Of a DNA stretch of 37,176 nucleotides, positions 1,581-37,176 are shown piece by piece. The translations under genes were made by a program, and so were the position numbers. The stretch is taken from NCBI GenBank assembly GCA_015657535.1, contig JADHZB010000576.1, positions 1 through 37,176 on the forward strand. The letters run 5' to 3'. Numbering within the stretch: the stretch's first letter is position 1; each line of letters starts with the position of its first letter. The notes beneath the pieces were generated by a model. The model worked only from the letters and a program-made list of their open reading frames with translations, was not told the origin of the DNA and ran no database searches. This DNA is from Nephromyces sp. MM_2019 (lineage: Eukaryota; Apicomplexa; Aconoidasida; Nephromycida).

Positions 1581-1625
<45 letters not shown>

Positions 1626-1982
1626 GTGGAAATATATGATGTAATTATATGAGTGTGAGTTAAGCGTTGTGCGTTGTATGTGTGTGTATATGTATATGTG
1701 TTGTATGTGAGTGCTCTGTGTATCAGTGTGTGTGTACCCAAGTGTTCCACTATAAAATGTGTCTTTGGGGTGTTAAATAATTTAGATATAGATTGATCCA
1801 AATATTTATTTTAACACAATCGTCTGTATTTACACACATTTTTAGGGCGAAATTGATCTTAATTCATGCGTCATACTGTGTAGTTTTGATCAATTGTACA
1901 TGTCCCTTGTGTATATATCAGATTGTAATGTGTGTTGTAGTGTATGCTACAATGTGTGTGTTGATTAAAATGTGTGTATTGA

Positions 1983-2400: not shown

Positions 2401-2699
2401 TGTGTAGATCAAAAAGAATTCAACGTTAAATCATGAAATCGTTTATATATGTTATTGTTTCTTACCTAATTCCAAATTGAAAAAAAGTAAATATAATCGT
2501 CTTTGAAAAAGGTGTGTGTGTAACCTTTCATTTTTTATTAGAAAAAAAAAGAGTATAATTTGAGTGTATTGATAAAAAAATAAAATTATTACACATTATT
2601 AAAGAGGATGATGAAAATTATTTAATTTTTTTTTTACATCTTTTGTTTCAAAAATTTTAATCAAAATGTAGACTAAAAGTGTGTGTGTGCGTGTGTGTG

Positions 2700-2770
2700 T
2701 GTATATGTGTGTGTGGTGTGTATATATATGTGTGTGTGGTGTGTATATATATGTGTGTGTGGTGTGAGTT
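2700..2770. repeat. 23-bp tandem repeat
   Basis: Three near-identical units of TGTGTGTGTGGTGTGT followed by a TATATAT tail. This is a local higher-order repeat inside the TG-rich block. Confidence 0.75.
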
Positions 2771-3060
2771 TGTGTTTGTGTATGAGTGTGTGTATATATG
2801 TATATATATATATATACATGTATTGGAATCAATAATAATAATACTTGTTTATGAAAAAAAAGTTTGTGCAATAAATTGAATTTTTTGTGTAATAAGTTGA
2901 ATTTTTTTTTCAAGTGTTGCTATACGTGTGTGTGCTTTTTTTGATTCATCTAAAAGTGTGTACATGTGTATACGTTTGATGTGTGTGTGTTTGTGTATTT
3001 TTTGTGAGCATGTGTATGTATACTTGTGTGTGTATAACATGTGTACACCCACCCTTATAC

Positions 3061-6075: not shown

Positions 6076-7087
6076 CTATGCGGTAGTAATGATTTCGGAG
6101 TGGGTATAGTCTTTGAGTGTGGGTGATGGCAAATCAATTGTTATTATTATTGGGTTAGAAAATGCTTCTAGAGAGTAATTCGCAGCTAGGAATGCCAAAA
6201 CTAAAAATTGTTTGTCTATTACTTCTGGATCAAGCATCATTTGACTGGAAGGGAATTCAAACAAAAGTTTGTAATTACCCTGTTTCATAGGACATGCTTG
6301 TTTTTCGCAAGCACTAAGTTCAAACAACTTTATGGCTGGAAAAATATATTAGGAGTATAGTGTAGTATATGCATAAATATTTAGCTTTTGTAGATAATAT
6401 ATTGCCTGAGAGTTATCAAATTCTTAAAGCTTATAGATAGTTAGATAAAAACAGGGTGTGTGTTCAGCTAGTGTTGAATAGAATTTATTACGGGAGTCAG
6501 TTAAATAAGTGTAAAGTTTCTTATAACTGAGGTGTATATATTATCTATAATATAGGGCTCTAAGTGTTTGGCATTGAGTAATGTAAGTGTGGTTCTAAAT
6601 AAGGTAATTTTACAATTGAGTGTGTTTTTCTAATATAAGTTTTATGTGATTTTATAATGAGTTGTCTAATTATGGTATAGAAAAGTTTAGATTGAGGTGT
6701 CTGTGTTTTAATTCTAATGTGAGGGCTTGAATATTGAATTCTGTTTGTGTGGTTTAAACTATAGAGAAATTCACAGTGTGTAAATTATATGATTTATGTT
6801 TAATTACCAGGGACATTTATTTGGAGATCAATCAAGTTTAGGATGGGGGTAAAGGAGTTATTACCAATCATTTCACAGTCCAAGACAATTGAAACTGTAC
6901 ATTTTCCATCTGCTTGGCAATCCTTATAAGTTACATGATATTTGTGGATTGATATTGATGTCTTTTGCGGAGGTAGATTGTTGGGACTGTTGCCCCTTAA
7001 TGATTTAGTTGACTCAAGTGAGCTTAAGAAGCATAGAGTAAATATACATGATAAAAGGAGATGATAGATGTAGAAGGTAGTTATCAT
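6076..7087 (-). CDS. secreted NPC2/ML-domain-like lipid-binding protein
   Basis: Two exons are joined: 7087-6808 and 6335-6076, with a 472-nt intron (donor GTAATT, acceptor TTTTTCCAG, phase 1). The product is 179 aa. Residues 1-27 form a hydrophobic signal peptide beginning MITTFYIYHLLLSCIFTLCF. The mature part has paired cysteines in exon 1 (DCQADGKC, then LDCEMIG). Exon 2 carries CEKQACPMKQGNYKL followed by a FPSS turn and beta-rich sequence. The C-x(4)-CPxxxG..Y pattern followed by alternating hydrophobic strands is typical of ML (MD-2-related lipid-recognition) proteins such as NPC2, which bind sterols or phospholipids in secreted or lysosomal compartments. The usual late C-terminal cysteine is absent, so the disulfide set is not canonical. 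The secreted nature is well supported; the ML assignment is inference from the pattern. It diverges from the Rpn5 gene across a 1.8-kb spacer. Confidence 0.65.
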
Positions 7088-8881
7088 ATTGTAAAGCGAT
7101 AATAATTAAGAAGCAGGATAAACTATATGAAAGTTTAAATTGGGAAGTGAAGAAAGAGGTAAGTTAGATGGTAAGAAAGGATGATTAAAATGATGAATGT
7201 GAGAAGCAGAATAATCAGCTAATTATTTGAATATTGTTATCAATTAATTGTTAACCTAATTCTAAGACATTAGTAAGAATCTAAGCATACACATCTGTCT
7301 AAATTGCACTTAAAATGGATCTTACAATCCAAGGATATTTATTATTATATACTATAGAACGTTTCCATAGCCTAAGCCCATAATTTTCGAAATGAGCTTG
7401 TTTCACAACTGATGTGGTGGATTCAAAATGAAAAGTTGTGATAATTTTTCCATGATAATATATATATATGTGCTTCACTTAAAAAATTATTTCTATATTT
7501 TTCTGACAAAATTTATATATTGATTTATAAAACTTGTTAAGTGTTTGTGTAATATTTAACTTTTCTTAATTTCTAAGTTATATGAACCAATGCTACTGAG
7601 GATTACAGATTGAGCACGAGTAAAAGAAAATCATCAAGACTCTCATTTTATCAATATTTTCTCTTTTTATATGCTTTCCAAAAATCGATGATTAATTTAC
7701 ATGGTTTTAAATAAAAATTGAAAACTGGTTGTACATTCAAGCCAAAATACTTATTCAAATAGTATTTTGAAAACTTGCCAAAATCTAGCATTAAAAAAGT
7801 TGAGGTCATTGTGGATTTATATATGGATAACTAATTAACAACATATCACGTATTTGAAATGTGAAATAATCTCCAATTTTCCTAAATTTAAAGCATATAT
7901 TTTAGGAAATTTAAGTAGCTAATACCTAATGTATATATAGTATAAATAAAATGTGACACATCGGATGAATCTAGGCACAATTAAGTAATACCCATTGTCA
8001 AAGCAAGCATATAAACAACGCTTGTGTCATAGTTTTTTGTACAAGTTTTATCAATACGCATTTATTTTAACGTACGGCACCTACTTAATTACAATTTACA
8101 CATACCCTAATATCACATACTTACTTAGCACCATGCACACACCTTTTTTAATATACGTACATACTACAATTCACACACCTATCATTGAACAGCTAGATAA
8201 CGATGCATAAAAACATCATATATACCTACCAAGCTACGTTTACACCAACACAAGATCATATATATTTACAAACAAAAAGTCGTATATACTTTATCTTGAT
8301 GGGCACATACATAAATTTGCATCAAAAAACTCAAAAAAACTTATTACATACGAATACACACACGTAACCACAATCCATGAAAACAATACATAAGATATAA
8401 ATAATAAACTACACAATATCACTATAACCTTATAAACATACATAAAACAATTGGTAATCACATGCAGGTATCCAATTAACTTACTTCTGGTTCGTTAAAT
8501 CTAACTACCCAGGTAGCAAAACAACTACACTATTCAACTAGATTTATTTAAATTCCGATATTTTCAACACATAACTCATTATCATCCCCTATCCGATAAC
8601 TCCCATCACAGTATTTGAGTTTAACTTTCTACACGCTTCCATTCTGATGATTTTCTAGAAACAGTACAGAGAAAATTAATGTTGTAAAAAACCAAGTTTT
8701 GGAAGCATTTATTTTACACACTATAGCAAGTCATTGATACTAACAAGTTCACTCTTCTACCTTGACACAAAAACACGACACAAATTGTGCTTACCTGAGG
8801 TTGTGCTAAGCAAATTATATATTGAATTTTACACATTAGATTCAATATTAAGATATTTGAACCACATACTTCTATTCAAGG
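7088..8881. other. spacer between divergent genes
   Basis: This stretch separates the 5' ends of the NPC2-like (-) and Rpn5 (+) genes and must hold both promoters. The part from 7990 to 8450 is rich in ACATAC/CACACA words on the + strand, and the frame open at 7995-8210 is composed of that simple sequence, so I do not call it a gene. No defined regulatory motif was recognised. Confidence 0.5.
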
Positions 8882-11800
8882 ATGACAACTGAATCAGCAA
8901 CGGCAATATTAGGAGACTTGGAGTCTCTAACTAATGATCCAAAGGCCATTGAGGATTTCAGTGAGTCTGTTAAACTTTTTTTACCTCGCATAGAAGCCTT
9001 TGTCGAAGTAAATATATCTTTATTCACTTATATTGTGACCATTGCTATTATATTATTATTCTTTCATCAAGAGAATTGCTTGTTTTATGATAAACATATA
9101 AATTAAAAAGTACTAAGCTTCATGTGGTTTTAGAGCCTCTTAATACTAATACCTTGTTGCAGTGATTTACTTGTATATATATTTCAGGCAGGACGTACAA
9201 CTACAGCTATTGATGAATTACTTTCACTAGAAAAAAAGTGCCGGCAAGCCTCCGATGCTCAATCAACATCAATTCTATGCTGTAAATTATTGGATATTTT
9301 CCATAACGAAGGGAATTGGGACAGCATTAATGAACATCTTGTTATAATGTGTAAGAAAAGGGGACAACTAAAGAGAGCAATAGTTGACATGGTACAACTT
9401 TGTATGAAATATTTAGAAGATAGCTTACCCGATGAGAAGCATAAAAACCTATTGAATACACTCTTGAGTGTTACTGAAGGCAAGGTAAGCTTATAATAAT
9501 TTCATTTATACAAACTGACTAGATTTCATATATTTTCCATGACTGTAACGTCATTTACTGATATGAAAGATAATAAAACTCTTAATCTCAATATCAATTT
9601 TTCATAACTATGGATATTTACATTTACCTTTAGATTTTTGTTGAGGTTGAAAGAGCTAGGCTAACTCTTTCATCAGCACATAGATTAGAAAAAGAAGGAA
9701 ATGTCAATGATGCAGCTGTATTACTACAGGATGTCCAGGTTATATATGCTCCCAAATTAAGATTTCTGATATCAAACAATTGATTATAATGTGACTACAT
9801 ATTTAGCTTGCTTTTGTTCTATAATTTTCTAAGAATATTTGAATTCCCAAAAACACACAATTCAACTTAGTTTAATACTTTTAAGCTACAATTTACAATC
9901 CCTCATTTGATTTTCATTGAACTCTACTCAAATCTGCTTGTTTAGAATAAATTAGATAGATAAATACTCACCTTTATCACATATGCAAACCATATATTAT
10001 TATTTTTTGAATTTAATATAGGTTGAGACTTTGGGATCTATGGATAAAATTGAAAAGGCTGAATACATCCTCGAACAAATGAGACTCTTATTATTGAAAA
10101 TGGATTACGTACGATTTCAAATTGTTAGCCGAAAAATTAATTTCCGACTTTTAGAAGCAGATGAATTCCAGGCTATTAAAATCAAATATTACAATTACAT
10201 GATCAAGTATTATATCCATGAAGATAGAACACTAGATGTTTGTAAATCTTATTACTCTTTACTTAATACACCCTGTGTACAAACGGACACAAAACAATGC
10301 AAGGAGGTAAAATTATTTAAACGATCTCTTAATTTTGACATCTCTCATTACCAATACCTAATTACAATGATTACTGTTTATATCTTAATCACGATTTGTT
10401 TTTACAGACTCTCGAATACTACATTCTTTTTCTCCTGCTTGCACCATATAATAATGAACAACAAGACATGCTAAATAGGCTGGTTGTGATGGGTAAATAT
10501 TTGATCTAGAAATAGTCATATTTATGAGTAAAAATACTTTTTACAAAACACAGTATTGGTCTTTTGTATGAAAAAAATTTTTTAAGCTTCTGAATACCAC
10601 ACTTAAAATATGTTAGGCTTCAACCGTTGTCGGTACTTCTATTCATAAATCTTATTTGTTTATATTTTCACAGAAAAGAAGAAACTTGATGAAAACATTC
10701 CATTCAAGTAAGTTCAACTAATCCAATAAAAATATTGTTTTCTCTCTTGAGATTTAGTTATACAGATATATTATTTCAAATTCACCAAATTTCTACAGGA
10801 AACTTGTTGAGGTTTTTATTACCTTTGAAATCATACCATTCGACTTTCCTTTTAAAGACATTGTTAAACAACACGACGTTTTTTCATCAAATCCTTCAAA
10901 GTATGTTTATTATTAATACCTCATATAATAAGTCTAATATTTTTATATATATGTTTGTTTAGTGAAACACTATGGGAAACTTTCAAGAAGCGTATAATCC
11001 AACACGTAAGTCAATACTTAATTCCAAAATTATGCATTTCAAGAATTTAATGTACATATGTGTATTGCTTTGAATCCAAGAAAAACTAACAATCTTATGT
11101 TGTGAAATCTAAATACAGAACATACTTGTGATTGGTAAATATTATAGCCAAATTACTATGAAAAACATAACCCACCACTTGCACATACCCATGGAGGTCA
11201 GTTTTTTTCATCTTAGTATCCTATTTTTTAAACTTTGGTATTCTAGACTTTAAAAATTACGAGAGCCTAAACAATTTTATTTCATTTTGTTTCTGCTTTT
11301 TTTATTACTCGTCATACTTTGTAAAATCACAGCAAGCGGAACTAGAAATTGCTGAATTGGTCTCACAAGGTCATTTAATGGCTAAAATTGATAGGTAATG
11401 AGCATGAGTACTTAAATTAATACTTCTTAGACCTAACACATTTCTTCTAAATATTAACTTATCCAGGCCTTCTCAAATAGTACATTTTGGTAAAGCTCAA
11501 ACATCAACTGATTTCTTGACTGAGTGGTCATATGACATTGGAAAGTAATTCATTGAATACATTTTCATATAATATTAAAACCACAATTCTTAATTACAGC
11601 TTTAATTTATTATTTTAATCCTTAAAAAAGTCACACACTATAAACCCTTCTTTATAAATGATATGAATATATATATATATATATATATATGAGTATTACA
11701 TCATATAAAACAAATTATTAGTAACTTGAATTTGATGTCTACATTATAATGATCCCTTATAAGCCTAATCTATTCCTACAATGAGTAAATAGTTACATAC

Positions 11801-12007
11801 CATATCTCCCAAGATATGTTAGTCTTAATTTTCACATTTCCATAATATGTATATTCAAATCCTCAAAATAATGTTTCCTAACATTCTAAATCTTTATTTT
11901 TTATATATAACAGAGGTATAGATCTTATAGAAGAAACCTCACATCTAATCCAAAAGGAACAAATGATTTATTCCGCTCGTCAAGTCAAACTCAAAACGAC
12001 TAATTAA
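8882..12007 (+). CDS. RPN5: 26S proteasome regulatory subunit Rpn5 (PSMD12)
   Basis: Twelve exons with GT..AG borders and compatible phases: 8882-9007, 9188-9484, 9634-9738, 10022-10306, 10408-10492, 10674-10707, 10799-10900, 10963-11005, 11119-11196, 11333-11394, 11467-11544, 11914-12007. They encode 462 aa, close to the usual length of about 450. Rpn5 is a scaffold subunit of the proteasome lid. Family blocks are clear: an N-terminal helical-repeat region with VTEGKIFVEVERARLT across the exon 2/3 junction, QVETLGSMDKIEKAEYILEQ in exons 3/4 and the KIKYYNYMI helix. The PCI winged helix spans about residues 360-430 (GKYYSQITMKN, then LMAKIDRPSQIVHF). The C-terminal helix LIEETSHLIQKEQMIYSAR is typical of the lid helical bundle. 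Exon 6 is only 34 nt. The gene converges on the Iwr1-like gene with a 476-bp gap. Confidence 0.96.
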
Positions 12008-12483: not shown

Positions 12484-13227
12484 TTATTCTTCGTTGGAAA
12501 ATGAATTCAGATCCCAGTTAGAAAGTGCAGAGCTATAACCAGATACAGAACCATTGTATGAAGAGCTATAACCAGATACAGAACCATTGTGTGAAACTGA
12601 GTCACTTAAGTCTAAAAAGTGTTCATCTTTATTTTCAAATCTAGCTAAGGAATAATAGCCTAAAACTTGTCCAGTTTGTTCATTTACAGCTTCACCTTCA
12701 AATATAGGGTTTTGAAAATTATCGGAGTATGATCTGAACCATTCTTCTTCAGTTGAATAAATAAGATCGGGCTCATCATTTAATTTGTACAAATCATAAA
12801 CATATTCATCATCTGAATCCTGTCTATGGTTTTCACCATATCTAGATGGGTCAACATTATTAGAAATTAGGCTATTAAGCCTATTAAAGTGGATTTTTGT
12901 GTCTGTATAATTATGGGGTGAGTCATAGCTATTAGTAACTATGTCAATGAATTTAAGTTTATGTCCATCGACCATATCAAGTAGCATAGAATTCATATTC
13001 TGTTGTTCTTCATCATAATATTCCCAGTCAATTGGATTCTCTAATTCATTAAAATGGCCAATCAGGCTCTTTGTTGATTTATGATCAACACTGGTCAGAT
13101 ATTGAAAACGTTTAGTGGGGGTAGAAGTTAAATTACTTTTAATTGATTTTGTTACAATCTCTTGGCAGGGTGTATCAGTACGTTTTCGTTTCATCCTAAG
13201 ACAAAACGTAACAGGATGCCCCTCCAT
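12484..13227 (-). CDS. IWR1: Iwr1-like RNA polymerase II nuclear import factor
   Basis: A single exon of 247 aa. Iwr1 (SLC7A6OS in animals) binds assembled RNA polymerase II and guides it into the nucleus. Two family hallmarks are visible: an N-terminal strand-plus-basic segment VTFCLRMKRKR (residues 6-16), matching the LRVKRKR start of the family, and the acidic aromatic block DSDDEYVYDLYKLNDEPDL (137-155) followed by STEEEWFRSYSDN (158-170), where the family has its Iwr1 domain. The middle is low in complexity and acidic. The C terminus has an 11-residue Ser/Gly/Tyr repeat (NGSVSGYSS twice, residues 214-233) encoded by a 33-bp tandem repeat. No nuclear export signal could be assigned with confidence. 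The first ATG of the frame is used; an additional 5' exon cannot be excluded. Confidence 0.75.
   Translation of the reverse strand: MEGHPVTFCLRMKRKRTDTPCQEIVTKSIKSNLTSTPTKRFQYLTSVDHKSTKSLIGHFNELENPIDWEYYDEEQQNMNSMLLDMVDGHKLKFIDIVTNSYDSPHNYTDTKIHFNRLNSLISNNVDPSRYGENHRQDSDDEYVYDLYKLNDEPDLIYSTEEEWFRSYSDNFQNPIFEGEAVNEQTGQVLGYYSLARFENKDEHFLDLSDSVSHNGSVSGYSSSYNGSVSGYSSALSNWDLNSFSNEE
12529..12590. repeat. 33-bp coding tandem repeat in the Iwr1-like gene
   Basis: Two copies with a 33-bp period share 29 identical bases (12529-12557 and 12562-12590), each beginning AGAGCTATAACCAGATACAG. They encode the doubled Ser-Gly-Tyr motif. Exact identity points to a recent slippage duplication. Confidence 0.9.
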
Positions 13228-14685: not shown

Positions 14686-16197
14686 ATGTCAAAAATTGAA
14701 TTCACAATAGTTCAAGCTACTAACGTAACCCAAATGGATATTTTATCCAAATCTGATCCTTTTATAAAAGTATACAAATTGCTTTAGTAATAATTCAAAT
14801 ACACTTCCTATATCCAATTTTCATTTCTATTTTGATTTTAGTTTACTTGGCAAAATAAAAAATTCAAGACTAAAGTAGTTGATAACAACTCAAACCCATA
14901 TTTCAACTGCAGATTTATCTTACCTTTTGACGTAAGTGAAGATGTTAGAAAGGAATAAATCTGATCAGAAACACTCTCAAATTTTCATTACACACACACT
15001 ACTTACTAATTTCTATTTACATTATTCTGAATATATCACTATATATGATTATCAAAGCATCTATACATTATTTAGTCAGTTTCTGGACCCTTTAAGGCAA
15101 ATTTGGAACTATTTGACCACAATATATTTGGCCCGAATGAAAAAATTGGTGAAACAATCATTGATTTCAGAAATTATAAGGTAATTCAGCTATTCTTATT
15201 ATTAAAATTCAATTATCCTTTATCACTAAGGACTACACATCTACATATTTGCTAAGCAACCACGTTTTCTCTTATATTAATAAAAAGCATGATTATGGTT
15301 TTATTATTTATCTTGAAACCTATTGCAAATTAAATTAATAACAACAGCCTAACCAAAGTAATTCAGATACCCTTGTACTAAATAATAAACAAAGTCAATG
15401 TCAAATAGACGTAGTTTTACATATATTTGGAGAATTTTCAGGTAATTAATGTTCAATTTCTACGTATCATCTAAATGTAAAATATATCCAAATCTTTCAG
15501 AAGAAAATTCGTTCTGGAAAAAAAAGGCTGCCATGAAAAACCCATATAACTCTCCACCCTATTATAACACACCAAATGTAATTTATTATTTATTTTTCCT
15601 AAAAATATTTTTCATATATTATGACGCTCACCTAATTGGCATGAATCAATTTAACTTTCATTTCAGAATCAATTTACCAATTCATATTTTGATGTATCTG
15701 TTTTTTCATATCTATGAGACAATTCTTAACTATCAGAGTGATTATAATAAATTCGATAATATAGCAATGATTCCATCAAATATTCCATTTTATCCGAACT
15801 CTTCAAGACCTCCTACCAACCCAAACTATCAATTTAATTTTGATGGAGAAAACCCAGGTAAAATAATTATAGGACTAACAACACCAATCAACTCAATTAC
15901 CCATTTCAATAACTCACAGGATCAAAACACATAGAACAAAATCGTAATCAGTTACAAAATCCCTACCCTATTCAATATCCCAATCAACACCCGCACCAAT
16001 ACCTTGATCAAAACACTAATCAAAAAGGTCTTCATAATGGAAATATTATGAGCCCTTCCATATTAGCTCAAATGTTTCCACTAATGCCAAGTGAAAAAAT
16101 TGCTAAAGTTTTGAAAAAATGTTCCTATAACTATCATAAAGCTATACCGAAATTGCATAAAAAGTATATGAAGTATAAGCAATATAATTTCATATAG
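14686..16197 (+). CDS. C2 and CUE domain protein, Tollip-like architecture
   Basis: Eight exons in consistent phase: 14686-14769, 14842-14931, 15076-15180, 15348-15441, 15501-15577, 15667-15693, 15737-15857, 15920-16197, giving 291 aa. Residues 1-125 form a C2 domain: IEFTIVQATNV, then MDILSKSDPFIK with loop-1 acidic residues D18 and D24, NSNPYFNCRFILPF, and ANLELFDHNIFGPNEKIG with D72 in loop 3. Some calcium-ligand positions are Asn or Glu, so calcium binding may be weak. A Pro/Asn/Gln-rich linker (about 135-243) follows. Residues 244-284 resemble a ubiquitin-binding CUE domain, with the MFP motif at 251-253 and a helix ending HKAIPKL. C2 plus C-terminal CUE is the layout of Tollip, which links ubiquitinated cargo to endosomal membranes. 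The C2 call is strong, CUE is good, orthology to Tollip is inference. Confidence 0.82.
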
Positions 16198-22757: not shown

Positions 22758-25700
22758 ATGTTTCAAATAAAAATGTTTTCAAAGTGTTTAACTAAAATAG
22801 CGCTATCTGTTCTACTAATAATATGTCACTATTATAGGCCTGGGTATAAAGTTGCTTTTTCTTTACGTAAGTATTTTAATATAAAGATTTTAATGCGCTT
22901 AGACAAGAATGTTTATTTTAAAATGTTATTTTCTAAATTTTATAAAAACTTAGATATGAATCATTGGCTATACCTTCAAAATACAAACCCTGTTAAAAGC
23001 CTTTATGAGATAATTGAGAAAAGTTCATATAACGACAGGGAACTTTTTGGTCACAGGGCTTTTTATTACATTGAAGACAACAATGAAAATAATGAACAGT
23101 GGAGATACTTTCTTGAAAATTACATTCATAGACCAATATATGGACAAAAGGTATGCCCAATCTTTAATTTAGAAAATTTTTTATGAAACTAAATGTAAAT
23201 TCTACTTTTATTTACCCATTGAATATGAAATCTGAGCTTATAAGATTTCAAACATCCTTGGATTAAAAAAGTTAAGGTTATCTAGTTATCTTGCTTCGCT
23301 TTTCTATTTTTCTATCTTTCAGAAATCATGGGCAGCAACCCATAAAAATGAATTATATGGCCATTTTTTTCATTTAAATAATAGTTGTATAAAAGCACCA
23401 AAAGAAGAAATTGAAAAGCATTTTGAACAATTTTTAAAAGATATCTGCATCAAAATTATAGGTTAGTATACTCAATTTTGTTGGATGTAGCTACTTTAAA
23501 TCTTTTATTCAAATATCTAAACTTGATTCGTGCAAATTATCAGAAATTTTGAAGCTTGAAAATGATGATTGTAGTACAAAAAAAGGTGACTTATACATAA
23601 TCATTGAAAATTAATTGACCAGTTAAAAATATTCTTAAAAATACTTCGAAATGCCATATATGAGACTTCATTTTTCAAACTAATGTATCCTAATTGTAAA
23701 TTGAAAATTTGAATTCAGTTGTACTGATTGCGGAATTAGAAGGCTTTTATGAAAGTATTTTAGTCAATTACCAAAACCAACTTGTGTTTGAAATAAACGA
23801 CCATTCAGTTTTCCGTAAATTTGAATTTGAAATCAGATATAAAGGCAAGGGTGACCAAGAGCTAATAAAAAACTTCTGTAGATATATGCTCACTCAAAAA
23901 GACATTATAGATGAGGAAAATTGTAAAATTCTCTATAAATTTGACATTAATGAATTATCGATAAGCCGAAAGTATTATCACATAAAGATGGATTCTGAAT
24001 TGTGGTATACGTGTGTCTCCTATCAGCATAGGATGGATGAAAGAATTAACTATTTTGATCTGTTAAATTGCTATTATGATAAAGCAACAACATCATTTGA
24101 CAATTTGATTAAAGGCAAATTTGATATGAAAAATCTTTCACAAATAATAAATCTTATCCTAAAACTAAATGCCTATTCCTCATCAAGCCTAGTAAATGAT
24201 CCAAATTTGAGAAAAATTGGGTATGACTCATACCTTAGATTTAATAAAAAAATAATTTTACCTTGTGAGCTTCGGCATGGGGATGTAGATTCATTCGATG
24301 ATCAAATTGGCTCTTATAGAAACTATTTTGAAGTCAATAATACTTTCAAGCTTGTTATAATAAAGACAAATGGATTAGGTTAGACTTGTTGAAGTTTTTT
24401 CGTGATAACTGTTTTAGAAAATTGTTTGTTATGGATAGCTATGTCATTATTTAGTTAAAATAGTATTTGAGTCACTAGGAAAAACTTTATTAAATCTCAT
24501 TGATATAAATAATTATTAAATTTCCATGTGAAATCTTGTGATACGAATATCAAGCTATAGTTAGATGTTGAATATAAATTACTTTACAGACTTCGGTTTC
24601 ACGGATTTCGTTGGAAAGTTGAATAAATCCCAATTGGCAATGTTAGAAATTATTAAAAAATTATTTTCATTACGAGATTCTGTAACTTTTGGTTATGATC
24701 CATTCTCGCTTGATGACAATAAGGTTGATAATCTTGATAAATGGACATTTATTAATCATTACCTTATGAAAAGTATTCCTGAACTGGTGAGACTTTGCTC
24801 ATGTAGTTGTATAATGTGGTTACGGTTTTTACTAAGTCACGCTAAGAAAACGAATAATGTATGTGAAACCTTTTTAAAGCGACCATTTTCGATATTCAAA
24901 AATACTTTAGGCTCAGCATAAGGAAGCAATAGAAAATCAGATCATAGAAGAAATTGCATCCCTTTATTCATTTGGAGTCCATGAAGATAAACAGGACTAC
25001 TTGTTAGGATTGACGACTTACAAAAAAGAATTTATGAATGACTGTTTTTTAAAGCTATACATATACACATTTGGTAAATACTAATTTTTATTATGATTCA
25101 CTCATTAAAAATATATTACAATATTTTCCTCTAGAAAAAAGTTACTTTGCTTCCAAAGGTTTTCCTAACCCACCAAATAGAGGTAATAATGTGATAAGAG
25201 ATTTTCATCACTTTATTTTAATAATCTAATTGAACAACTTAAAGTTGTTATAAGCACATGAGACACTCATTTTCTTTGCAGTCAAATTAAGATTCATGGA
25301 GCCAACAGGTCTTGTTAGAATATTTGACAGGCGTAATAAATCCAAAATGATAGAAGTATTGATGCCTGCTTTAAAAAATGATTTTGATCTTGAATTTTTT
25401 AGTTATAGAACGGATTTCTTATTAGGTCAAATACCTACAACAAGCCTCCCAATGTGGATTCGGGAATGCATGCTTAGTAGTGATTTATCAGAAGTTTTAG
25501 AGCATGAGCTCTTAGTAAGTGAAATTGAAATACTAGAGAGCAAATTTTTTGAAGAACTATCTTTGGATGGAATTAATAATCGGCTAATGAAAAATGAATT
25601 CTTGAAAGAGGTTTTGAGAATCTTTTATAATATTATTGATCATTCAATTGATAAATCTAAACGAATGTTGGAGTCTATACCTCAATTAGCTATACGTAAC

Positions 25701-25949
25701 GCCAATAATGCCAGTGCCATCAGGCAAAGACTCTTTATGGATCTTATCAAACGTAACATTTATTGGAAAAATATTTCTGTCAAAGCAAGCCAGCATTTAG
25801 ATTTATATAAAATTAGAGCTTCTACTCCGCATTGGTTTAGTACACTGCCAAATAAGAGTTTATTAGGAGCATCGCCCCCAGCACTTATCCCAGCTCTATT
25901 TTTTCGGAATTTTGAGATTTATATACCAAGGGAAAAAAACAAAGTTTAA
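22758..25949 (+). CDS. secreted tandem-family protein, left paralog (nine exons)
   Basis: Exons: 22758-22866, 22903-23150, 23323-23461, 23544-23585, 23719-24378, 24590-24786, 24917-25073, 25135-25182, 25282-25949; 755 aa. The first intron is only 36 nt and in frame; if retained the product is 767 aa. Residues 10-23 (CLTKIALSVLLIIC) form a signal-peptide core, so the protein is probably secreted or placed in a secretory organelle. No domain is recognised. Blocks shared with the right paralog are EQWRYFLENY (end of exon 2), HKNEL (exon 3), LEGFY and SISRKYYHIKMDSELW (exon 5), FEVNNTFKLVIIK (end of exon 5), GYDPFSLDDNKVDNL (exon 6), IASLYS and FLKLYIYTFG (exon 7) and PALFFRNFEIY at the C terminus. 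Few cysteines and no later membrane span are seen. A second ATG at 22773 is an equally good start. Function unknown. Confidence 0.85.
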
Positions 25950-26774
25950 AATAGATAAAATTATTATATTAACTGTACGCAACCAACTGCTTTCAAGCGA
26001 CTTAACACAGCTTGTTGCATTTGCATAAATTAGTTGGGCACTCCTATTATAAGCTTTATAACTCACGTGTATTTATTTACATTCCACTTATAACTACGTT
26101 TTAGTAGTTTTTATAATTAATTCTTGCTTAATTAACTTTATCACCGAGTATCTAATAGGTTTATCTTTTTTACTTATTAAGTTAGTCAAGTCAATTTGGG
26201 AAGGAAAGCTGATCAACTAACATTTAAAGAATTAGTCATTCCATTATAAGATTATATATATTTACTAATTGGTAAAACAATTTCGGAATCAAATTTCTGG
26301 AAATAAGTAAATAGAGCTTCAAATTTAATACAAGGAACACAATTTGTTTTATAATACAGATTTCAATTTATTCAAGGCTTAACAATTATTATTAATGAGT
26401 ATAGTATATATCTAGCATTATGGCAGAGTAACAGAAATCATATCAACTTAAGAAAGGGCAACATTTAAGCTCAATATAGCTAATTGATCATTTTATTTTG
26501 ACTCAATTAATTATTATACTCAAGTTATAGTAGCTAATATAGCTTACAAGATTAATATAATTTAAACAATAATAGTAGTAGTTTTTGGAGCCTTCATGCT
26601 TTGAATATTCGTTAAATTATCAAATTGAGGTGGGATAGTGGCTTTAATATGAGATACTTCATAAGAGTGATTTTGAAAAAAAATTGTCAGGAACCTGTTT
26701 CCACATATTTATGCATTGAACTTTAAAATTGACTACATTAATATAAAGAAATTGATGAAACTTTATATGTATAT
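25950..26774. other. spacer between the left paralog and the pseudogene
   Basis: No exon of the family's 5' half (exons 1-6) is recognisable here, so the pseudogene to the right appears to lack those exons. The sequence is AT-rich with no other feature. Confidence 0.45.
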
Positions 26775-27516
26775 AAAATCAAGCTTGAGAAAGCAGAGAT
26801 AGACCAGAAGCAAATGCATCTTTCTAATGCCGTAATCAACTCGGAAATTTATAAAAAAGATTTTAGGCTTGTAGAAAAATACTTTTAAATAAAAATTCAA
26901 GTAAGCACTAGAGCACTGGAGATAGTGTTTGTTGAACATGGGATTGGACAACATAGGGAGGAATTTATTATTGAAAATGGAGATCCTTTAATTACCTTGG
27001 ATGATTTTTAATCTTCTAACGAATTTACGACAGTAGTTTGGCATATTTTAATCGTGTTGGTTGAATTAAAAAAAGTTCAAGATTCAAGTATATAGAGTCA
27101 GTATCTACTATAGCAGAAAATATGCTCTATAAATATATGCACTTATCTGATGCTTATGATGTATATCAGTCTAATTAAGAATTCTTGAGACATATATTTG
27201 TTAGTTTTAAGCATAGTATACAAACGTGCCTCCAGGTTAAGTAGCACTTAAGGGTGTAGAGGACACTCAAAAGACAATAGTTTGGTATTGATTGTTTAAA
27301 GAGCAGAATTACCTAACAAATATAAAAAGAAAGGTTGGAATGAAACATGTGTTATACATTAAAGATGTGTTGGCAATGGCTTGTATGGACTAAAAGTTGA
27401 TGAATCAGATTGGATCTAAAAATTACAGAAGCCACGAAACACTAGTCGACTATCAAGGGAAACTACCAGCTCTACTTTTTAGTACGTTCAGAATGTTGAA
27501 AAAAGTGAGGAATTAA
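26775..27516 (+). pseudogene. decayed third copy of the secreted family (exons 7-9 region)
   Basis: Remnants appear in family order. Near 26820-26914 a frame with IYKKDF and an interrupted EKYF..IKI ends at a GTAAGC donor, matching exon 7 of the intact copies. At 27098-27240 a frame reads SVSTIAENML, then HLSDAYDVYQSN, a stop, and EFLRHIFVSFKHSI, matching VSEIEILESKFFEEL..NEFLKEVLRIF of the left gene. At 27378 GLYGLK..DW matches LYGIR..SW of the right gene. Finally PALLFSTFRM matches PALFFRNFEIY just before a stop. The last three pieces lie in three different frames with several in-frame stops, so the copy is dead. Exons 1-6 are not recognisable. Pieces similar to each intact gene suggest an ancestral form or gene conversion. 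Confidence 0.75.
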
Positions 27517-27570
27517 CTAAATAAAAAAAACATAATTTGGAAATTAAAATCAATTTTTAACTTCCAACAG

Positions 27571-28400
27571 TGAATAAATCTTCACCCAAAGATAAAACTT
27601 TGATACAAAAATTGAAATTGTTTCTAATTGTTCTTGTTTTAAAGCATCAACTTGCTTACTAACAAATTTTTATAAAACTTAAAGTACTGTTTATTAACTA
27701 CTGAATCATGGTCTCCCATGTTTTGAATTTTCAAAATGTTCCCATTTTAAGTATATTTCATTGACCCACTTGGAAATTCTTGTAGCCAAATTCCCTTGGT
27801 CAAACTCACCAGGAATAAATTAGTAACCAATTAGGTTTTTTTCAGTTATCACAACTTGAAAAAAAATCAAGTTCAAATGTTTAGAGAAAGGCTAAAGAAT
27901 CAAATCACTCTTAACATGCTTCCTTCCTTTACAGGTATTGAATTATCAAGCTTTTAGCTACATATTTCCATTATCTGGAAGCATACCAATTTTTTTAAAT
28001 TTATCTGATGCTATGTAATTCAATAAAAGGATCTTAAGTTAAGTTTGTAATAATTTTAAAAATAACTCAGTCAATTTTATATTATTTAGTTCTATAATAG
28101 ACTTTTACTTGAATCACGCTAGAGTGCCCATTGTAGTGGCGAAGGAGCAATATCGTATATTTAATTAATCACAGTGATGGAATAAGGTGGTATAAATAAG
28201 TTATTGCCCCGTAGTTTTGATTTTTATGTACAGACAAGGCAAATAAGCTGCTAAGCTAAATTACTAAACAATTAGCCTTTAAAAGTATTCGCTTAACTTG
28301 TTGAAATATATCAGTCCTACAAGATGCACAAGTTTCCTATAATTCGTCTAGTTACATAATCAGTTACTAAGAAGTTGTGGATATGATTCAAAACAATCTT
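27571..28400. repeat. duplicated 3' flank, copy 1 (behind the pseudogene)
   Basis: This segment resembles 36320-37170 in order. Shared words are a TTCACCC block just past each stop, a CAGGxATAAATTA block, TTTxCATxATCTG, ATGCTA, CAAATAAGCTG (28240-28250 and 37011-37021) and TATTCGCTTA (28286 and 37059). The resemblance is diverged but collinear, so the flank was duplicated together with a gene copy. I see no gene inside it. Confidence 0.65.
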
Positions 28401-31400
28401 TGTTTGGTACTTCCCTCTCCGGTGATAAGTAACACATCCTATTGTTTCTACAACAATCAAAATGTAAATATAGAATCTTTACTCTTTCATTTTCTATCTT
28501 AGGCTCTCGAAAAATGTTTTATTTTCATGAAAATAGAATTATAAACATTGGAACAGCCCTAACCAAAGACTATTAAACATAATGATAAATACTATAAGTA
28601 TGCAAAAAACCCTTATAATTCAAAATTTTTACTGTCTCTTATTGAATTTTGTAGTCTCAATAGAACAACAATGATGAATTATAATTTATTGCTGGTAATT
28701 AATTATATTAAATAATTCAATTTATGACAATATGTTATGCTTTTACAGCTTAGTCACGAGATTATTAGAGTAAGCTCCATAAATTTCATATTTGAGTAAA
28801 AGTATCATCTAGAGGAATTGTTTAATAAAGCACAATCAATCAATAGTCAAATCTTATTAAAATGATTCACTGGAATTACCTATAAAATAATTTTAATGAA
28901 TAAGCCTATTAGTCAAGCTATAAGAGTTGCAGAACAAGACAAAACAGATAATTAGTCATTCAATTAGAGTGTAAAAGATATTAATAATATGATATGACTT
29001 ATGAAACAAATTTAAATTGATCTAATTTGGATAAATTTGCTAATTGCTCGATAAATGTATTTAATAAAGGAATGAAATTTGACCCAAATTATACAAGAAT
29101 TATAAATAAATAAATAATTTTTTATTTTTGTATTCAATATTGATTTAAACCTTGAAGCTAGAATCAATCAACAACAAGTTTAGAGATACGAGTTATATAA
29201 TATAATTAAAAAGGCAAATTATAATTAGGCAATCAATATCTTTGATAATTGAACAGTGATTTGAGTTAGAGCTTGCTTCATTGTTGATGTTGATATTTTA
29301 TATGAATTAATTATATATGACTAATAAGCATTCCAAATCGACATAAATGAGATAAATATAATTCGAATTAAGTGATAATTAATAAAGTTATCTTAATTGC
29401 AGTTTTAGCATTTTATTTAAATAAGGCTCACCAGTTTATTCTATGTGAGAATTATCCTATGTGACTTGACATTTTTGGTTTTTTTAAGTCTAAATTACAA
29501 CAAAACAGCTAAGCAAATTTTCAAAATTCAGGGTTTATCATAGGACTAAAGGACAACTGATCAAATTTCTCATTTAAATGATGCGTTCGCTTTATAAATA
29601 ATTTCATTAGAAAGTTTAGTGTCATTATTTCACTATCAAAACTATTTCACAAATGATTGGATATTTAGATTTTATTAAATTCTTTTATATTAGCTCACCT
29701 AATTCAGAGAATTCACTTATATTCGACAATCATGATAATTCATACTAAGCTCATTATGGATTAAATTGGGGCTGGACAATATGTTTTAGCACCATAATTC
29801 CTTTTGAGTGGTAATACAAGTAAAAATACATATATGTAAATTTAATTTCACATAAACGAGCAAATAATTTGAACAAATATTCGAAGCCCATAAAATTTTA
29901 TTCACGTAAAAAATATGTTGTAACTACAATGTCTATTGAAAACTTATTTAATGCTTAGTGAATAGAGATGAGGCCTAGTCTAAGGCTTATGTTTTTTCTA
30001 TTGACTGAGTAACCAGTTTTGTTTGAATGTTTAGGTGTTATAAGGTAGAAGTCCAAATTATGTAAAAAAATATAATGGAACTATGAAGTATTCAATTGTC
30101 CTTGGAGTAATCTACCCACTTTCGCTTATATTCTCTTCAGAATGTATTTGCAATGTATATGATAAAAATGTCCCAAAGTAAAAAAAAAATTTCCCAATCA
30201 GGCACTTGAGTATATATTGCTTATACCAACTGTGCCCTAATGTCACGAATCCGTTAGAAAATGAAAATTATTAATTATTGGTCTTTGACATATGGTTGCT
30301 TCATCGATCTTTTGGTAAAATAAGAAACTAATTAAAACATTGTTAAATTTGAGACATTCTAAGTATAAAAATTTTAAAACTAAAAAACAGTAATACAAGT
30401 ATAAAAATTGAAGGGACATAAAAATTAAAATTATAAATAGACAATCCGCTTTGTTCTTCAACTATTAAGTTATTACCCATAGCTAAATACATCTGGAAAT
30501 AAAATTTTGGCTTCTTTTTTTATTTCTAGTATAGAGGGGTAACATATTGTGAAGTATGAAATATACCAAAAGTGATAATTTTTTATTATATAGATATTCA
30601 TCTATTTTGATATGGTTATTTGTGGGTGGATTTGGTATAGTACAAGGTGTTTGTGTACAAAAAATTAAGTGTGTGTGAAATTTTTTCGCTGAATAAGTTA
30701 TGTTAAAATCATATCAACTTGTGTTGAGACTGAGTTAAGTAAAGATTAATAAAGGGAGATATACGTAGTTTGAATTAGTAACATTGTGTGAGATTGGTTT
30801 ATCGAAATAACAATTTAAGTTTTGCAAAGTATCAGCATTGCTTGGTGCTTACTATTTAAATTAGACATGTATGAAAACTTATAAACTCGGCATAAAATGT
30901 ATTATTTAAGAGTTTAGAAAGTAAAAACTGTTATTCTTGTATAGTAATTAACAACTTGTGACATTGCTTTTAATAATTTGAAGTTATTAACTACAAGCTA
31001 TCAGATGTGCATGACATTTTCTTAGTAAGAAATCGCTTCAATTTGCCATATATAAAGTTAAAACTCAAAATTCAGCTTGATAGATAGTAATGAGATAATA
31101 TGCTCAATCTTAATATGAATGATGCTCCTTCTTAAGTTCACTGATGTGTGAAATTTATCTCTTGTTGGTGATATTTGTACAATTGCACTTAGAGGAATCT
31201 CACAAAGGGTTAGCTATTATTTTCAACACTGTAGATCTCTACTAATTTGTGTTGGAATGATTGTGGTTTAACTTTTTCAAGTCATCAACTGAATATGGGA
31301 TATCTCCGTGGAATCATGAATGTTTAATTCTTACCAAATTAGAGTATTATTGTATAGATAGGATAGGCGAAAGAGCTTAAAAGGGAGACCATTGGTGTTG

Positions 31401-33008
31401 AATTCATAAAGGTGAGTTAAGTTTATTCATAACAAACAAAAATCAACTTAAGTAAATCACTAAATATCTATAATATTTCTTCGCAAAATTTACTGATATA
31501 AAACTAACTGATTTGTGAGTGAAACTTACAAAATTGCATTTGGAAAATTCTCATAAACTAATTGTTTTTAAATTGTGAGCTCCTATTGATTTTTTTCCAA
31601 TTGAATTTTACAGATTGTAGTGCTTTTACATAAATTTCCCATTAATTTGGTGAAGTTTTCAATTCTCCAATTGAGTTTGAAGGTTTTATGCATTAATGTC
31701 TTGAGGAGATTTGTATATGAAAAATTGGATTTCTTAGAATTTACAAATTTTCACTAGAATATGGTATAATGAACTTGAAATAAATTACAAGGCGTTAGGA
31801 TTACATGAAATCTCCCTAAAAGTAAATCATGCTTCTAACATTCGTACAAATTTAAGAAACTATATATAGTACATTGATTAAATCCAGAAATGTGTATAAT
31901 ACACTATGAATTTATCATTCCTATCTTTAAGTCCCAATTTAGAACTTTGAAAATCTGACGCGAATTTACAGGGAAATTTGGGGTATGCTTGACAAGAGAA
32001 AAGTGCCTAAAAAGAAGCTTATTGATAAATATCTGGTAAACCTTATTCAAATATACAAAATATACATGCTATAACATCTGCTGGGATTATTATTTTACTG
32101 GTAGAATCGTTTATATCATGAGAGATTGAATTTCTAACCAAGATTTCTACTTATCTTTCAAAATAATTATTATAGCTTTATTAAAATGAAAGCCATTCTA
32201 TGAGCATGACTTCAGGTGTGTTTGTCTCCGATACGAAATTTCTAAAACAATTCAAAAGATGCATCATTCAATAAGTTTGGTTGAGAAATTTATTTTAAAA
32301 TTGTTAAAAATGCAAGGCCTGATAGTAAGTAACCTGGCATCGTTCGTGCTTAACCATGTGTAAATTGTTTATGTGGGTAAATAGAATTTAATCATAACCC
32401 ACTTTGTAAAAGCACTTCTTGTAACAGAATATATGGCATAGAATATCTGGCTAGGGTGAGATTTGGATGTACTTTCAATTGTCATTAGATTTTTTTCTAT
32501 CACCTATAGATTTGCAATAGTGGCATCTATAATTTAGTCTAATTTTTCAAAATTTTAGTATTTAAGCCTAGTTTAATCATTATGTAAGCTTTCTAGCTGC
32601 TTGATACCGAATTATCTCATATATGAGATTTAGATTTATAATGTGCATTAAATATCTTAGAATAGCGTTGCTATAGGTGATCTGATAATCAATTTTAGAA
32701 TTTAAATAATAAAATTATTTTATATAAGCATCAATGAAAAAAGAATTATTTGATTCCTAAAGACCAGAAATAAGATTTAACGAGCTTAAAGTGTTGATGA
32801 AAACCTGAATCTTACACTAAGGAAAATCTGAATAAAATAATTCAATATTTGTAAATCTAATGAACTTGAAGTTACTTTGAATCATAAAGATATTTTAAGT
32901 TTAGATAATTTATAGCATTTAATCATTGGTAGAACCAAGACTCCTCCCTATTTGGAATTTGGCTACTTTAATATTACACATCGAAATCATGTAAATTACA
33001 TGTTAAAA
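28401..33008. other. 4.6-kb gene-free stretch between family copies
   Basis: No open frame or exon chain was supported. The section 28800-29110 has stretches of coding-like composition broken by many TAA/TAG codons and could be a very old family copy, but no family block was identified. Between 30600 and 31400 the + strand is mildly TG-rich. The region presumably contains the promoter of the right paralog at its right edge. Confidence 0.45.
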
Positions 33009-36000
33009 ATGATTATAAAGCTTTCAAGTCAAATAATAATTTTTTTATTATTTGTAAATGTTCTTTGTATAGAATTCTTATTGAAACCAATAGGTGAGAA
33101 TAAAATTCACCTTTCATCATAAAATATTCAAATGTTTTACCTTCAACTTTTACATTTTATGCCTCTATTCAATTAACGTTCAGACAATGAAATGCTTAAT
33201 AGTTTTAGGATTGGAGAATCAGGCATGATCAAATCATTAAAGGATATTATTTTATCTTATCATATTAATGAGAGCCAAAGTAATTTATTTCCAGGAAATA
33301 AGGATAGTAGCTCATATTCAGGAAATGTGGCTTTTAGCTATCTTATATACAAAGGCAGAGTCAATGCAAAATTAAATGAACAGCTACAGCTTGAGCAATG
33401 GGAATATTTTGTGGATAACTATTTAAAGAAAAAATCCAAAAATTCTAAAACTGGTGAAGAGGTTCGACTCTAATAGCTAACTTTCTGATACCCATGTATA
33501 ATTAACATAAAAACTCTTTTTCATAGCTAAATCATGCTTATTATTTGTTTTAGTTACTGTTTGTCTTCAATTAAGTTGAGCTCACATTTTTAATAAATTA
33601 TTTAAAATATAATTCAGTATAAATGGATGGATAAGCATGCTAATGAACTCTTTCAAATCTATTTGGATAAAGTTTATGGAGGCCAATTGGATTTGTTAAG
33701 TTATTCAGCTGCAGGTATAGATCCTAGAATTGAAGTCTTAAGACAAATCTGCAACCTTGTGCAAAGTTAGTTTCTTTAAACGTACATTGCGTTACTCATT
33801 ATCTTTATGGCTAAAATTAACAATTATAATATCTCACGTAGAGTTGGTTAAAAACAAGAAAAAATTAACCTCAATTGATCATAAACGAGGTAATTTCCAA
33901 AATTGATAATAAGAAAATTATTTAACATTATTTGTTTTTGGAATTAGAAATATAAAATGATGTTCCAAAATTTTTAAGTTATTATTGTAATAAACTTAGA
34001 ATTTGTAAGCAAACGACATAAAATTTTGTTTGTAAAATTTGACTTTAGTTAGTTTCCTCTTAAAGTTGGAAGGTATTTATAGAAATGTGACTGTAAGATT
34101 CTCAAAACCAATTTCCTTTCAAACACATGTTGATGTCTTTGCTCATGCTGAAATGATTAGCAAATACACTGGGGGCAATGATCATAGGATCATCACAATA
34201 TATTGTAAATTATATCAGCAAACATATAAGTATTATGATGAATTGTGCTTAGAATTTCTGCAAGCACCAATTTTAAAAATACCGTCTATAATGCGAACTT
34301 ATTATAAGATAGAGATGGAACCTGGTTTATGGGCTAGGTCGAATTCAAATGTGGATGTAGACAATTTAGACCACTTTGAAAAAATAAAAATTTACAAAAT
34401 ATTAAGAAGACCTAGTATTCAAAAAAGATTGAATAGCCAATACAAAACTGATTTGATTATAGAAAATTTTAAAACAATAAATTTATTGAAACATCTTTCT
34501 GATGCCCGTTTTGATGGTTTTAATAAGAGAGCTGTTGTAAAGAATTCTTTAAAATTGAATTTTCTTAAACATGAAGAAACATTTGTTTTTAGCAAAGAGG
34601 AAAGAGAGGGCATTCTAACATCGATGAGGGAGCAAGCTAAATTTTTGAAGACACATTTTGAAATTCAGAAAACCTTCAAGGTTATAATTTTAAAGAGTGC
34701 ATTGATTGGTTAGTTTATTTTACTATTAACGTCGATTATTCTTTTATAAAGCACCCATATATTTGTTATATATATATAACTATATATACTTAAATAGATA
34801 ATAAATAAAGTATTAACAATACAATTTACGCATAAATGAAGATAACAATCACATATTGGCTGGTATTATTCGATAGCTACTTTCCTATAAAATTGGCTAC
34901 ACATACTAATATAAAAATGAATATAATTGCTTTCAGATAGGACATTTTTAAAACTAATTGAATTCATGAGCGAATCTTTTGACTTAATGGAAAACTTAAT
35001 ATTAAAATTGAAAGAGATTCAAGATATAGACATAGAAGATGGCTTTGATCCCTTTTCACTCGAAAATTGTGGAACTGATAATTTGCTGAGATGGAATTAC
35101 ATCAAAGAAAATTTTATGAAAAAATACTATACACCAGTGAGGAGTTGATTAACATAAATATAAAATATGTAGATATGATATACCAATTATAATTTTATAA
35201 ACGTTTAACTCTCAGAATCTACTAAATTTTTACTATTTCAAAGGAAGTTTTATATTTTTGTATGTTTTAGGATTCTCAAACATATTACAATGCACTAGAA
35301 AGCAGTGTTATAAAGGAGATAGCAGCTTTATATTCACATATCGAGGATGAAGATTTTAACCAATTTTATGAAGCGCTAAGCGATCACAAAAATGAATTTT
35401 TGGATGATGTTATTTTTAAATTATATTTATATGTATTTGGTAAGGAATAAACAATTTTTGTCTTTATGATAGTATAAATACTCAAACAATTAATGTTAAA
35501 TCAGTAAAAAATAGCAAGGATCAAATGCTTGGAAATAATTTAGGTATATTAGCATTTTAAGCTATAACATATTCAATGTATCTACCTCAATATTATGAGG
35601 CTATGGCACATGATAAAAATAAATTAAGCAATGTTTTTAAATTTTTGCAGTAAAATTTTCTTATATACCGAATCTTGTAAATGTGAAGATAAATAGAAGA
35701 TTTAAACAAAGTTTCAATATTCTTATACGCTTTATTGAGTTTGATTTTGCGTATGAAAACCTTAAAAATCCAAAATTTTGGATAAAGTATATTGAAGCTA
35801 ACAAGAATGAATTTCCAGTATATATCCAAGAAAATTATAAGAAATGTGATTGGATGAAATACAATTTAACATTTAATTTTGATAAACCAGAATTTGTTAT
35901 GACAGAAAGATCATTTAGTCAAAATTTAAAAACATCCCAAGCTAGCAGATATAACAATAAGATTTTTCTGAAGAGTGCTTTTGAGGCAGTTTTAAAGGTA

Positions 36001-36258
36001 GGCTCTTCAAAGTTAGATTATTCTAATCGAAATGGAAAATTGAAACTAGGTGAGTATTTATTTGATAAATACAAAACCATGTTTAGTGAGGAACCAAATG
36101 TAGAAATTAATGAAGCTATCTTGAAGTCGGATCTATACGGAATAAGGCTTATGGTGCCATCTTGGTTTCAAAATTTAGTTACTGATGAATCTAATGAACT
36201 GTCAATGGAATCAGTGCCACCTCTTTTTTTCCGGGAGTTCCAGATTTATGAGAGGTAA
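33009..36258 (+). CDS. secreted tandem-family protein, right paralog (nine exons)
   Basis: Exons: 33009-33093, 33184-33461, 33618-33765, 33842-33889, 34049-34708, 34937-35136, 35271-35439, 35505-35543, 35651-36258; 744 aa. Exon 1 encodes little beyond a signal peptide (MIIKLSSQIIIFLLFVNVLC). Intron phases are 1,0,1,1,1,0,1,1, exactly as in the left paralog, and exon 5 is 660 nt in both. Shared blocks are EQWEYFVDNY (residues 99-108), HANEL, LEGIY, SIMRTYYKIEMEPGLW, FEIQKTFKVIILK, GFDPFSLENCGTDNL (442-456), IAALYS, IFKLYLYVFG and PPLFFREFQIYER at the end. The exon 2 donor (GTTCGA) is weak, but both the reading frame and the paralog require it. Sequence between blocks is strongly diverged. No known domain is recognised and function is unknown; secretion is the only supported property. 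Confidence 0.87.
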
Positions 36259-36319
36259 CTGGAAGGAGCTACATGAGCTAACATATTATTTTAAAGCTGA
36301 AATTATCTCATAACTTCAA

Positions 36320-37170
36320 TGGTTAATAAAACTTTCACCCAATTGTAAAGCTTAAATAAATAGACTAGAATTTGTTTTAATTTTTCTATTAAGAATGCTA
36401 TGTTGTTTATCGATAAATTTCTGTGGAGCATAAGTGAAATTTTATTTTTTGTGGTCCCCTATGTGCTCAAAATTCGAAGGCTTTCAATATTAAATAGATT
36501 TTTATTGCGCTTGAATTGAACTTTTTAGCAAACTTTTCTTGATCAATTCCAGCAGGCATAAATTATAGAATACCTAGTTCTCATCTGTGAACAAATTTAT
36601 TAAGATTCGTTAATAGAATTTTTTCAAGTTCAGCTTTATAGAGAAAGTTTAAGGTCTAATTAGTGTAGCTGTGCTTTAATTCTCTTCACACTGTTGCCTT
36701 AGTAGGCTTTTAAAAATGCTAGTTATTTGCATCATCTGAAAATTAAATTATTTCCTGAAAGTTATCCTATGCTACATAATGTAACATAGTTAGAAATATT
36801 TGTAGGTGTTTTAAAAGTAATCCAGCTAATTTTATTCTATTCGATTTTGAGATTTACTTTCTCTTGTATCAAGCTTAAATGGCTATTCCAATGACGAAGA
36901 TAAAATAATAAATTGCATATTTAGTCGAGTATAAGACTTTAGATTGTATTGAATTTTAGTTACATAATAAAGTATTTCCTCAACGTATCAATTATCATGC
37001 ATGAATAAGACAAATAAGCTGTTAATCTAAGTTACTACAGCTAGCTAGCCACCCAAAATATTCGCTTAATTTGTTCAGTTATGTGAGGTACACAAAGTGT
37101 ACATATCCCGCCATGATTAGATCTTACCAAGCTACTATGTAAGCAAGTATCAACGGATTAATATTATTAA
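36320..37170. repeat. duplicated 3' flank, copy 2 (behind the right paralog)
   Basis: Diverged, collinear partner of 27571-28400. It begins about 60 bp past the stop of the right paralog and runs to the window edge, so its true end is not visible. No gene is seen in it. Confidence 0.65.
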
Positions 37171-37176
37171 AAAAAT

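Follow-up and report, generated by a model that had tools for sequence, protein, structure and literature searches.

Contig C304, the 37,176-nucleotide window analyzed here (28% GC; the genome comprises 48.3 Mb in 1127 contigs), carries two intact members, genes A and B, of a multicopy gene family. We consider this family, with a probability of roughly 0.58, to be a lineage-specific set of soluble secreted proteins at the host interface, which evolves by birth-and-death, gene conversion and diversifying selection. The genes have a conserved nine-exon structure, are accompanied by broken copies across the genome, and carry signatures of tandem arrangement, a conversion-like exchange and site-specific positive selection; expression and export of the proteins and their role toward a host are predicted from sequence features.

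Gene A spans 22758-25949 on the plus strand and encodes 740 residues in a frame open throughout. Its model consists of exon 1 (22758-22866), signal-peptide-like by hydropathy; exons 2 (22954-23150; EQW-YF-NY motif), 3 (23323-23461), 4 (23544-23585) and 5 (23719-24378; four conserved cysteines), which would be pieces a and b, the linker and piece d of a first module; and exons 6 (24590-24786; DPFSL), 7 (24911-25073; KLYIYT), 8 (25135-25182) and 9 (25282-25949, stop included; PALFFRNFEIY), the corresponding pieces of a putative second module. Gene B, also on the plus strand and open throughout, spans 33000-36258 and encodes 747 residues from exons at 33000-33093 (exon 1, likewise signal-peptide-like by hydropathy), 33184-33461, 33618-33765, 33842-33889, 34049-34708, 34937-35136, 35271-35439, 35505-35543 and 35651-36258 (exon 9, stop included). 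All 16 introns are GT-AG, with lengths of 61-228 bases; the eight intron phases (1,0,1,1,1,0,1,1) are identical in A and B, and exon 5 measures 660 nt in both. BLASTP aligns the two proteins over nearly their full length (176 of 692 columns identical, 25%; E 4e-41), and each contains DPFSL, SIxRxYY and P[AP]LFFRxFxIY. The original prediction, made from the letters of the window, is thus borne out in its gene structures, its eight common phases with an equal exon 5, and its conserved blocks. The two genes did not arise from each other by a recent tandem duplication: in a tree of 13 family proteins, B clusters with copies from other contigs.

Behind exon 1, the genes are laid out as two tandem four-exon modules, exons 2-5 and then 6-9. 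The phase pattern 1-0, 0-1, 1-1, 1-1 repeats in both modules, and exon sizes pair 2/6, 3/7, 4/8 and 5/9 in A and B, an outcome of 384 among 40320 orders (about 1%, counted by hand). In profile comparisons, exons 2+3 reach 28.7 when set against 6+7, with none of 150 column shuffles going above 16.5, exon 2 against 6 scores 20.1 (shuffle maximum 14.2) and exon 3 against 7 scores 16.5 (shuffle maximum 14.4); exon 5 against 9 reaches 13.6, which is matched by 7 of 60 shuffles and is not significant. In reciprocal hidden Markov model scans, the cognate exon has the top E-value among the five non-self exons for all six profiles; the exon-9 profile has its best E-value to exon 5, but its mean score is higher for exon 7. 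That each gene combines a signal-peptide-like exon with two old copies of one four-exon module is, for the first halves of the modules, well supported by these scores; extension of the duplication to exons 5 and 9 is only suggested, the profile score of that pair being at shuffle level.

Exon-5 and exon-9 protein probes locate at least 21 loci of the family, a lower bound, on 14 of the genome contigs: 13 intact nine-exon genes, seven broken copies and one copy (C1039a) that runs off its contig end and was left out of the tally of 20 judged loci. An automatic gene builder, in which stops and frame shifts were disallowed and the phases of A and B prescribed, reproduced both hand-made models and produced intact nine-exon chains at 11 (9 + 2) further loci; since the builder received the A/B phases, equal phases in these 11 models are imposed, while the openness of the chains is not. 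The intact proteins measure 740-783 residues. No intact chain was obtained for C1039b, C493b, C355c, C219, C959, C157 and C25a, and each of these seven has in-frame stops in exon 5 or exon 9. On all six multi-copy contigs the copies, broken ones included, lie head-to-tail in the same orientation, with exon 5 of neighboring copies 5.7 to 12.4 kb apart (positions entered by hand). The predicted birth-and-death mode thus finds its counterpart in 13 intact and seven broken copies, uniformly oriented arrays and one conversion-like tract (see below); local tandem duplication, also predicted, agrees with the arrays and fails for A and B as a recent pair. For the 100 of 110 matches listed, TTTAGGG arrays lie on 12 contigs, none of which carries the family; the other ten may be on higher-numbered contigs, where family members are present on C959, C1026 and C1039.

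A decayed third copy had been proposed between A and B, and the proposal holds in part, chiefly through the 3' flank of that copy. The DNA at 27469-28328 is homologous to the 3' flanks of paralogs, with 27511-28087 aligning to the 3' flank of C113 at E 1.5e-23. The exon-9-like relic on the plus strand (26719-27504) is marginal: its collinear chain ending at 27504 scores 75.8 bits, which 3 of 80 shuffles equal. Exon 5 of the decayed copy is not detected between A and B (65 of 80 shuffles reach the chain score), and tblastn across the A-B gap yields 91 matches vs 79 in reversed sequence, a relic being inseparable from chance by this measure. An exon-6-like relic is clearer: a piece within the open stretch 32190-32360, plus strand, scores 24.7 bits against a maximum of 14.4 among 40 shuffles. 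It sits inside a 1.9-kb block upstream of B (31024-32956) that matches DNA upstream of other copies, on C157, C959, C915, C219, C113 and C25. Two other copies have a similar piece upstream, scoring 13 bits at C113 and 15 bits at C157; between the two C493 copies there is an exon-9-like relic of 16 bits (L030:1221-1343), so the gene-relic-gene layout recurs. From these pieces upstream of B, C113 and C157 and the C493 relic, the relics seem to have been duplicated together with working genes. Chains of exon-9 and exon-5 similarity at 32190-32990 are at chance level (28 of 80 and 13 of 80 shuffles) and were discarded.

Downstream, the final 1021 bases of the window (36156-37176) match the end of C219 at 100% identity, which persists until both contigs stop. 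In the sequence immediately before this stretch, 60-base bins show only 66-88% identity, and C219 carries its broken paralog at the matching end. Because C304 and C219 end at the same base, the two contigs may simply overlap in the assembly, with a very recent conversion or duplication an equally likely cause.

Apparent exchange between paralogs is seen in one tandem pair, C240a/C240b. In 50-base bins, these copies are 42-75% identical across most of the gene, 98-100% identical in a short block in the middle of exon 5, and 80-100% identical from 100 bases before the end of exon 5 up to where intron 8 begins. The tract includes introns: introns 5-7 are 95-97% identical, whereas introns 1-4 are identical at 70-76% of aligned bases, where random stretches score 73% by the same measure. 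A single alignment of 1294 columns at 89% identity spans the tract. This is the pattern that ectopic gene conversion leaves, and we call the tract conversion-like, as another cause is possible. On the tree of 697 codons, a codon model in our own implementation gives an overall omega of 0.68; allowing a class of sites above 1 (M2a vs M1a) improves the fit, with twice the log-likelihood difference (2ΔlnL) at 85.5 and 27% of sites in that class at omega 4.2. Restricting the test to the 492 codons more than 4 columns away from any gap gives a 2ΔlnL of 38.4 (23% of sites, omega 3.4). In 20 neutral simulations on the 697-codon tree, 2ΔlnL is at most 5.99. Diversifying selection on a class of codons is therefore favored, significantly so against the simulated neutral null, in line with the changing selection that had been predicted.

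The proteins combine this variability with a fixed frame. At 27 columns, 12 or all of the 13 members carry the same residue; these include the EQW-YF core of exon 2, two exon-5 cysteines and, in the terminal FFR-F motif, the phenylalanines. These two cysteine columns are kept in all 13 members, and a second exon-5 pair is jointly present in nine, jointly absent in four and never single. The four members lacking the second pair share a clade, so one loss may explain their state, yet C493a of the same clade retains both cysteines. Such paired occurrence suggests disulfide bonds, which would place the protein in an oxidizing, extracytoplasmic location. Exon 1 is hydrophobic in all 13 models, its DNA is conserved in several copies, and it may act as a signal peptide that exports the protein; the secreted character predicted for A and B agrees with the hydrophobic N-terminus that exon 1 encodes in both, with hydropathy as its sole basis. 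A C-terminal anchor was not found in any of the 13 proteins, in which 19-residue windows starting in the last 60 residues have a mean hydropathy of at most 1.29. Inspection revealed no catalytic motif of known type.

Taken together, these features suggest a mechanism in which exon 1 would direct secretion, disulfide bonds would form between the cysteines, and a variable surface, carried on a framework of invariant aromatic and cysteine residues, would face the host's molecules or its immune system. Gain and loss of copies, conversion and rapid substitution would then renew a repertoire of host-interface proteins. The same features might instead belong to proteins with a task within the organism itself, in mating, self-recognition or the oocyst/cyst wall, with sexual or structural arms races driving their speed. 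Secretion, duplication and diversifying selection would suit reproductive proteins as well, and no result here fixes the protein at the host interface; on the other side, many intact divergent copies beside many dead ones resemble apicomplexan contact families as these are described in PMC4413850, a likeness that the tests here do not turn into a discrimination. We regard a reproductive or wall function as a credible but unlikely alternative to the host-interface role.

Searches for relatives bear on another alternative, that the family is a highly diverged branch of a known apicomplexan family (e.g., FAINT/SVSP, SRS/SAG or ves2) which profiles miss. Pfam and NCBIfam give no credible match for single exons or for eight full-length members, and in none of these eight is there a Pfam match better than E 0.02; apart from SPINDLY (E 0.69) and a decarboxylase (E 1), both rejected as weak, PDB sequences hold no match better than E 1. 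Several other candidates were discarded: Sld3_N, PI_PP_I and Ric8 all fell under the cut-off, TPR_22 was weak and found in 1 of 11, and Mre11_C_bact, PI_PP_I, Rep3_C, glyco_access_1 and LipL32 were each weak and found in 1 of 8. A full-length profile, built from eight of the 11 models then in hand, was compared with 5.8 billion proteins, a search that did not extend to the full genomes of close relatives, and no protein reached E <= 1 among 7993 scored; because the search requires shared 5-residue words, relatives below about 40% identity (our own estimate) may be missed. From the same collection, a query with the genome's ribosomal protein uL3 retrieved proteins of five apicomplexan genera, Cardiosporidium, Eimeria, Theileria, Plasmodium and Cryptosporidium. 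AlphaFold2, run on exon 5 and on exon 9 from alignments of A and B alone, yielded no usable fold (mean predicted local distance difference test scores of 37 and 33). A literature search, in which the species name could not serve as a query, found no description of the family. Within these limits, the family is as undescribed and as free of known domains as had been predicted. The word-based search, the lack of a usable fold and profiles drawn from few sequences all leave room for a diverged branch; with neither the Pfam and PDB comparisons nor the 7993 scored proteins yielding a relative, while the uL3 control succeeded, we judge that explanation improbable.

The uL3 protein also places the genome. 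Its best match among the 5.8 billion proteins is that of Cardiosporidium cionae (77% identity over 165 residues), with Eimeria and Cyclospora as runners-up among species-named matches, and a tree of 11 rows (its own and 10 picked from 120 listed) groups it with Cardiosporidium at support 98/94. Its top chains among PDB sequences are 5xxb, 9ygm and 3j79, of which we take 5xxb to be from Toxoplasma and 3j79 from Plasmodium falciparum. By this marker, the source genome is that of an apicomplexan near the Cardiosporidium/Nephromyces lineage. According to PMC7737231, the C. cionae assembly comprises 57 Mb at 34.4% GC with a BUSCO completeness of 63.7%, and Nephromyces is a mutualist whose parasitic sister is Cardiosporidium. 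The grouping of our organism with Cardiosporidium, the sister of a mutualist in that account, bears on how a parasite-host role may be read.

Several results weigh against a secreted host-interface family of two-module proteins under diversifying selection. The host role is read from pattern alone. The signal-peptide call rests on hydropathy, and in the 11 automatic models exon 1 was chosen by hydrophobicity and donor site alone; internal hydrophobic stretches of at least 1.6 in C355b, C240a and C25b could span a membrane. The HHalign probability for the half modules (2+3 vs 6+7) is just 50%, and for whole modules compared at once it is 8%. The site test relies on long-branched paralogs, in which misalignment or unseen conversion may inflate the signal. 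Gene-wide, the ratio of nonsynonymous to synonymous substitution (dN/dS) by NG86 is 0.73-1.02 in all ten pairs of clade B (C113, C915, C358, C493a and B itself), with a bootstrap interval entirely below 1 in seven of the ten. These near-neutral ratios, together with seven broken copies among the 20 judged and an intron conservation that in all nine pairs compared equals or exceeds that of the exons (A/B being near random level in both, and the C240 pair including its tract), would suit a family drifting to loss under relaxed constraint, with omega near 1, pseudogenes and no positive selection; this is distinctly improbable, as 13 frames of about 750 codons remain open, the 27 near-invariant columns persist and the gain in fit from a class above 1 far exceeds that in the 20 neutral simulations.

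A secreted host-interface family remains our preferred reading. A bolder and unlikely version of it is that an orphan family of secreted proteins, whose fold may be new and built from two module copies, drives a repertoire of the arms-race type within the Cardiosporidium/Nephromyces lineage. Were this true and the species on the Nephromyces side, described as mutualist, then symbiosis with tunicates, and not parasitism alone, would involve secreted repertoires that diversify. Few apicomplexan groups have well-described gene families at the contact line with the host; the present orphan family, from a poorly sampled lineage, offers a ready candidate set for how this lineage handles its host, and the duplicated-module architecture a clear structural target.

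Elsewhere in the window, a multi-exon gene on the plus strand (8882-12007) encodes Rpn5/PSMD12 of the 26S proteasome lid, its N-terminal domain matched in two exons and its outer bounds set by eye. A further candidate multi-exon gene, drawn by eye (14686-16197), would have a C2-like start and an N/P/Q-rich tail. On the minus strand lie an intronless open reading frame of 247 residues (12484-13227) with a short repeated segment near its C-terminus and no Pfam match, and two open stretches (6076-7105), by eye resembling exons of a small secreted protein, of which 6800-7105 is without a Pfam match. TG/TGTGTA and TATA microsatellites crowd positions 1-4500, where one base, 1308, is unread.

Among known apicomplexan families, SRS/SAG proteins have cysteine-paired ectodomains and a secretory N-terminus, and SRS proteins carry a C-terminal hydrophobic signal for a glycosylphosphatidylinositol anchor. 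Pfam includes a SAG-type model and a FAINT model, and neither matches any of the eight full-length members of our family, which differs from SRS/SAG also in its two long four-exon modules and in the lack of a C-terminal hydrophobic tail. The family shares general properties with such repertoires: it is multicopy and species-restricted (at least 21 loci on 14 contigs, with no homolog elsewhere within the limits of the word-based search), and it combines arrays, head-to-tail on 6 of 6 multi-copy contigs, with a conversion-like tract, in C240. Multicopy tandem arrays, local duplication and conversion are likewise described for the SRS/SAG genes of coccidia in one review (PMC4413850). The ves1/ves2 and smORF genes of Babesia form species-specific secreted or surface repertoires; gene conversion has shaped ves1, ves1beta genes contain as many as 11 introns, and ves2 is reported to show little recombination (PMC4066756). 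Our family resembles them in its species-specific repertoire, in apparent gene conversion (ves1) and in multi-intron genes (ves1beta), and differs in that no homolog appeared at E <= 1 among the 7993 proteins scored and that the single C-terminal transmembrane helix of ves proteins has no counterpart, all 13 members being without a hydrophobic C-terminal segment. Predicted secretion, multiple copies and tandem arrays also link it to SVSP/FAINT of Theileria, as portrayed in PMC4413850. SVSP arrays are subtelomeric, while none of the 100 TTTAGGG-array matches listed out of 110 falls on a contig with our family, and its members are not Q/P-rich (Q+P 4.6-7.9% in 13 members). Because the testable defining sequence features of SRS/SAG, ves and SVSP were not found in it, we take the family to be new, and the kind of family to which it belongs to be one already known.

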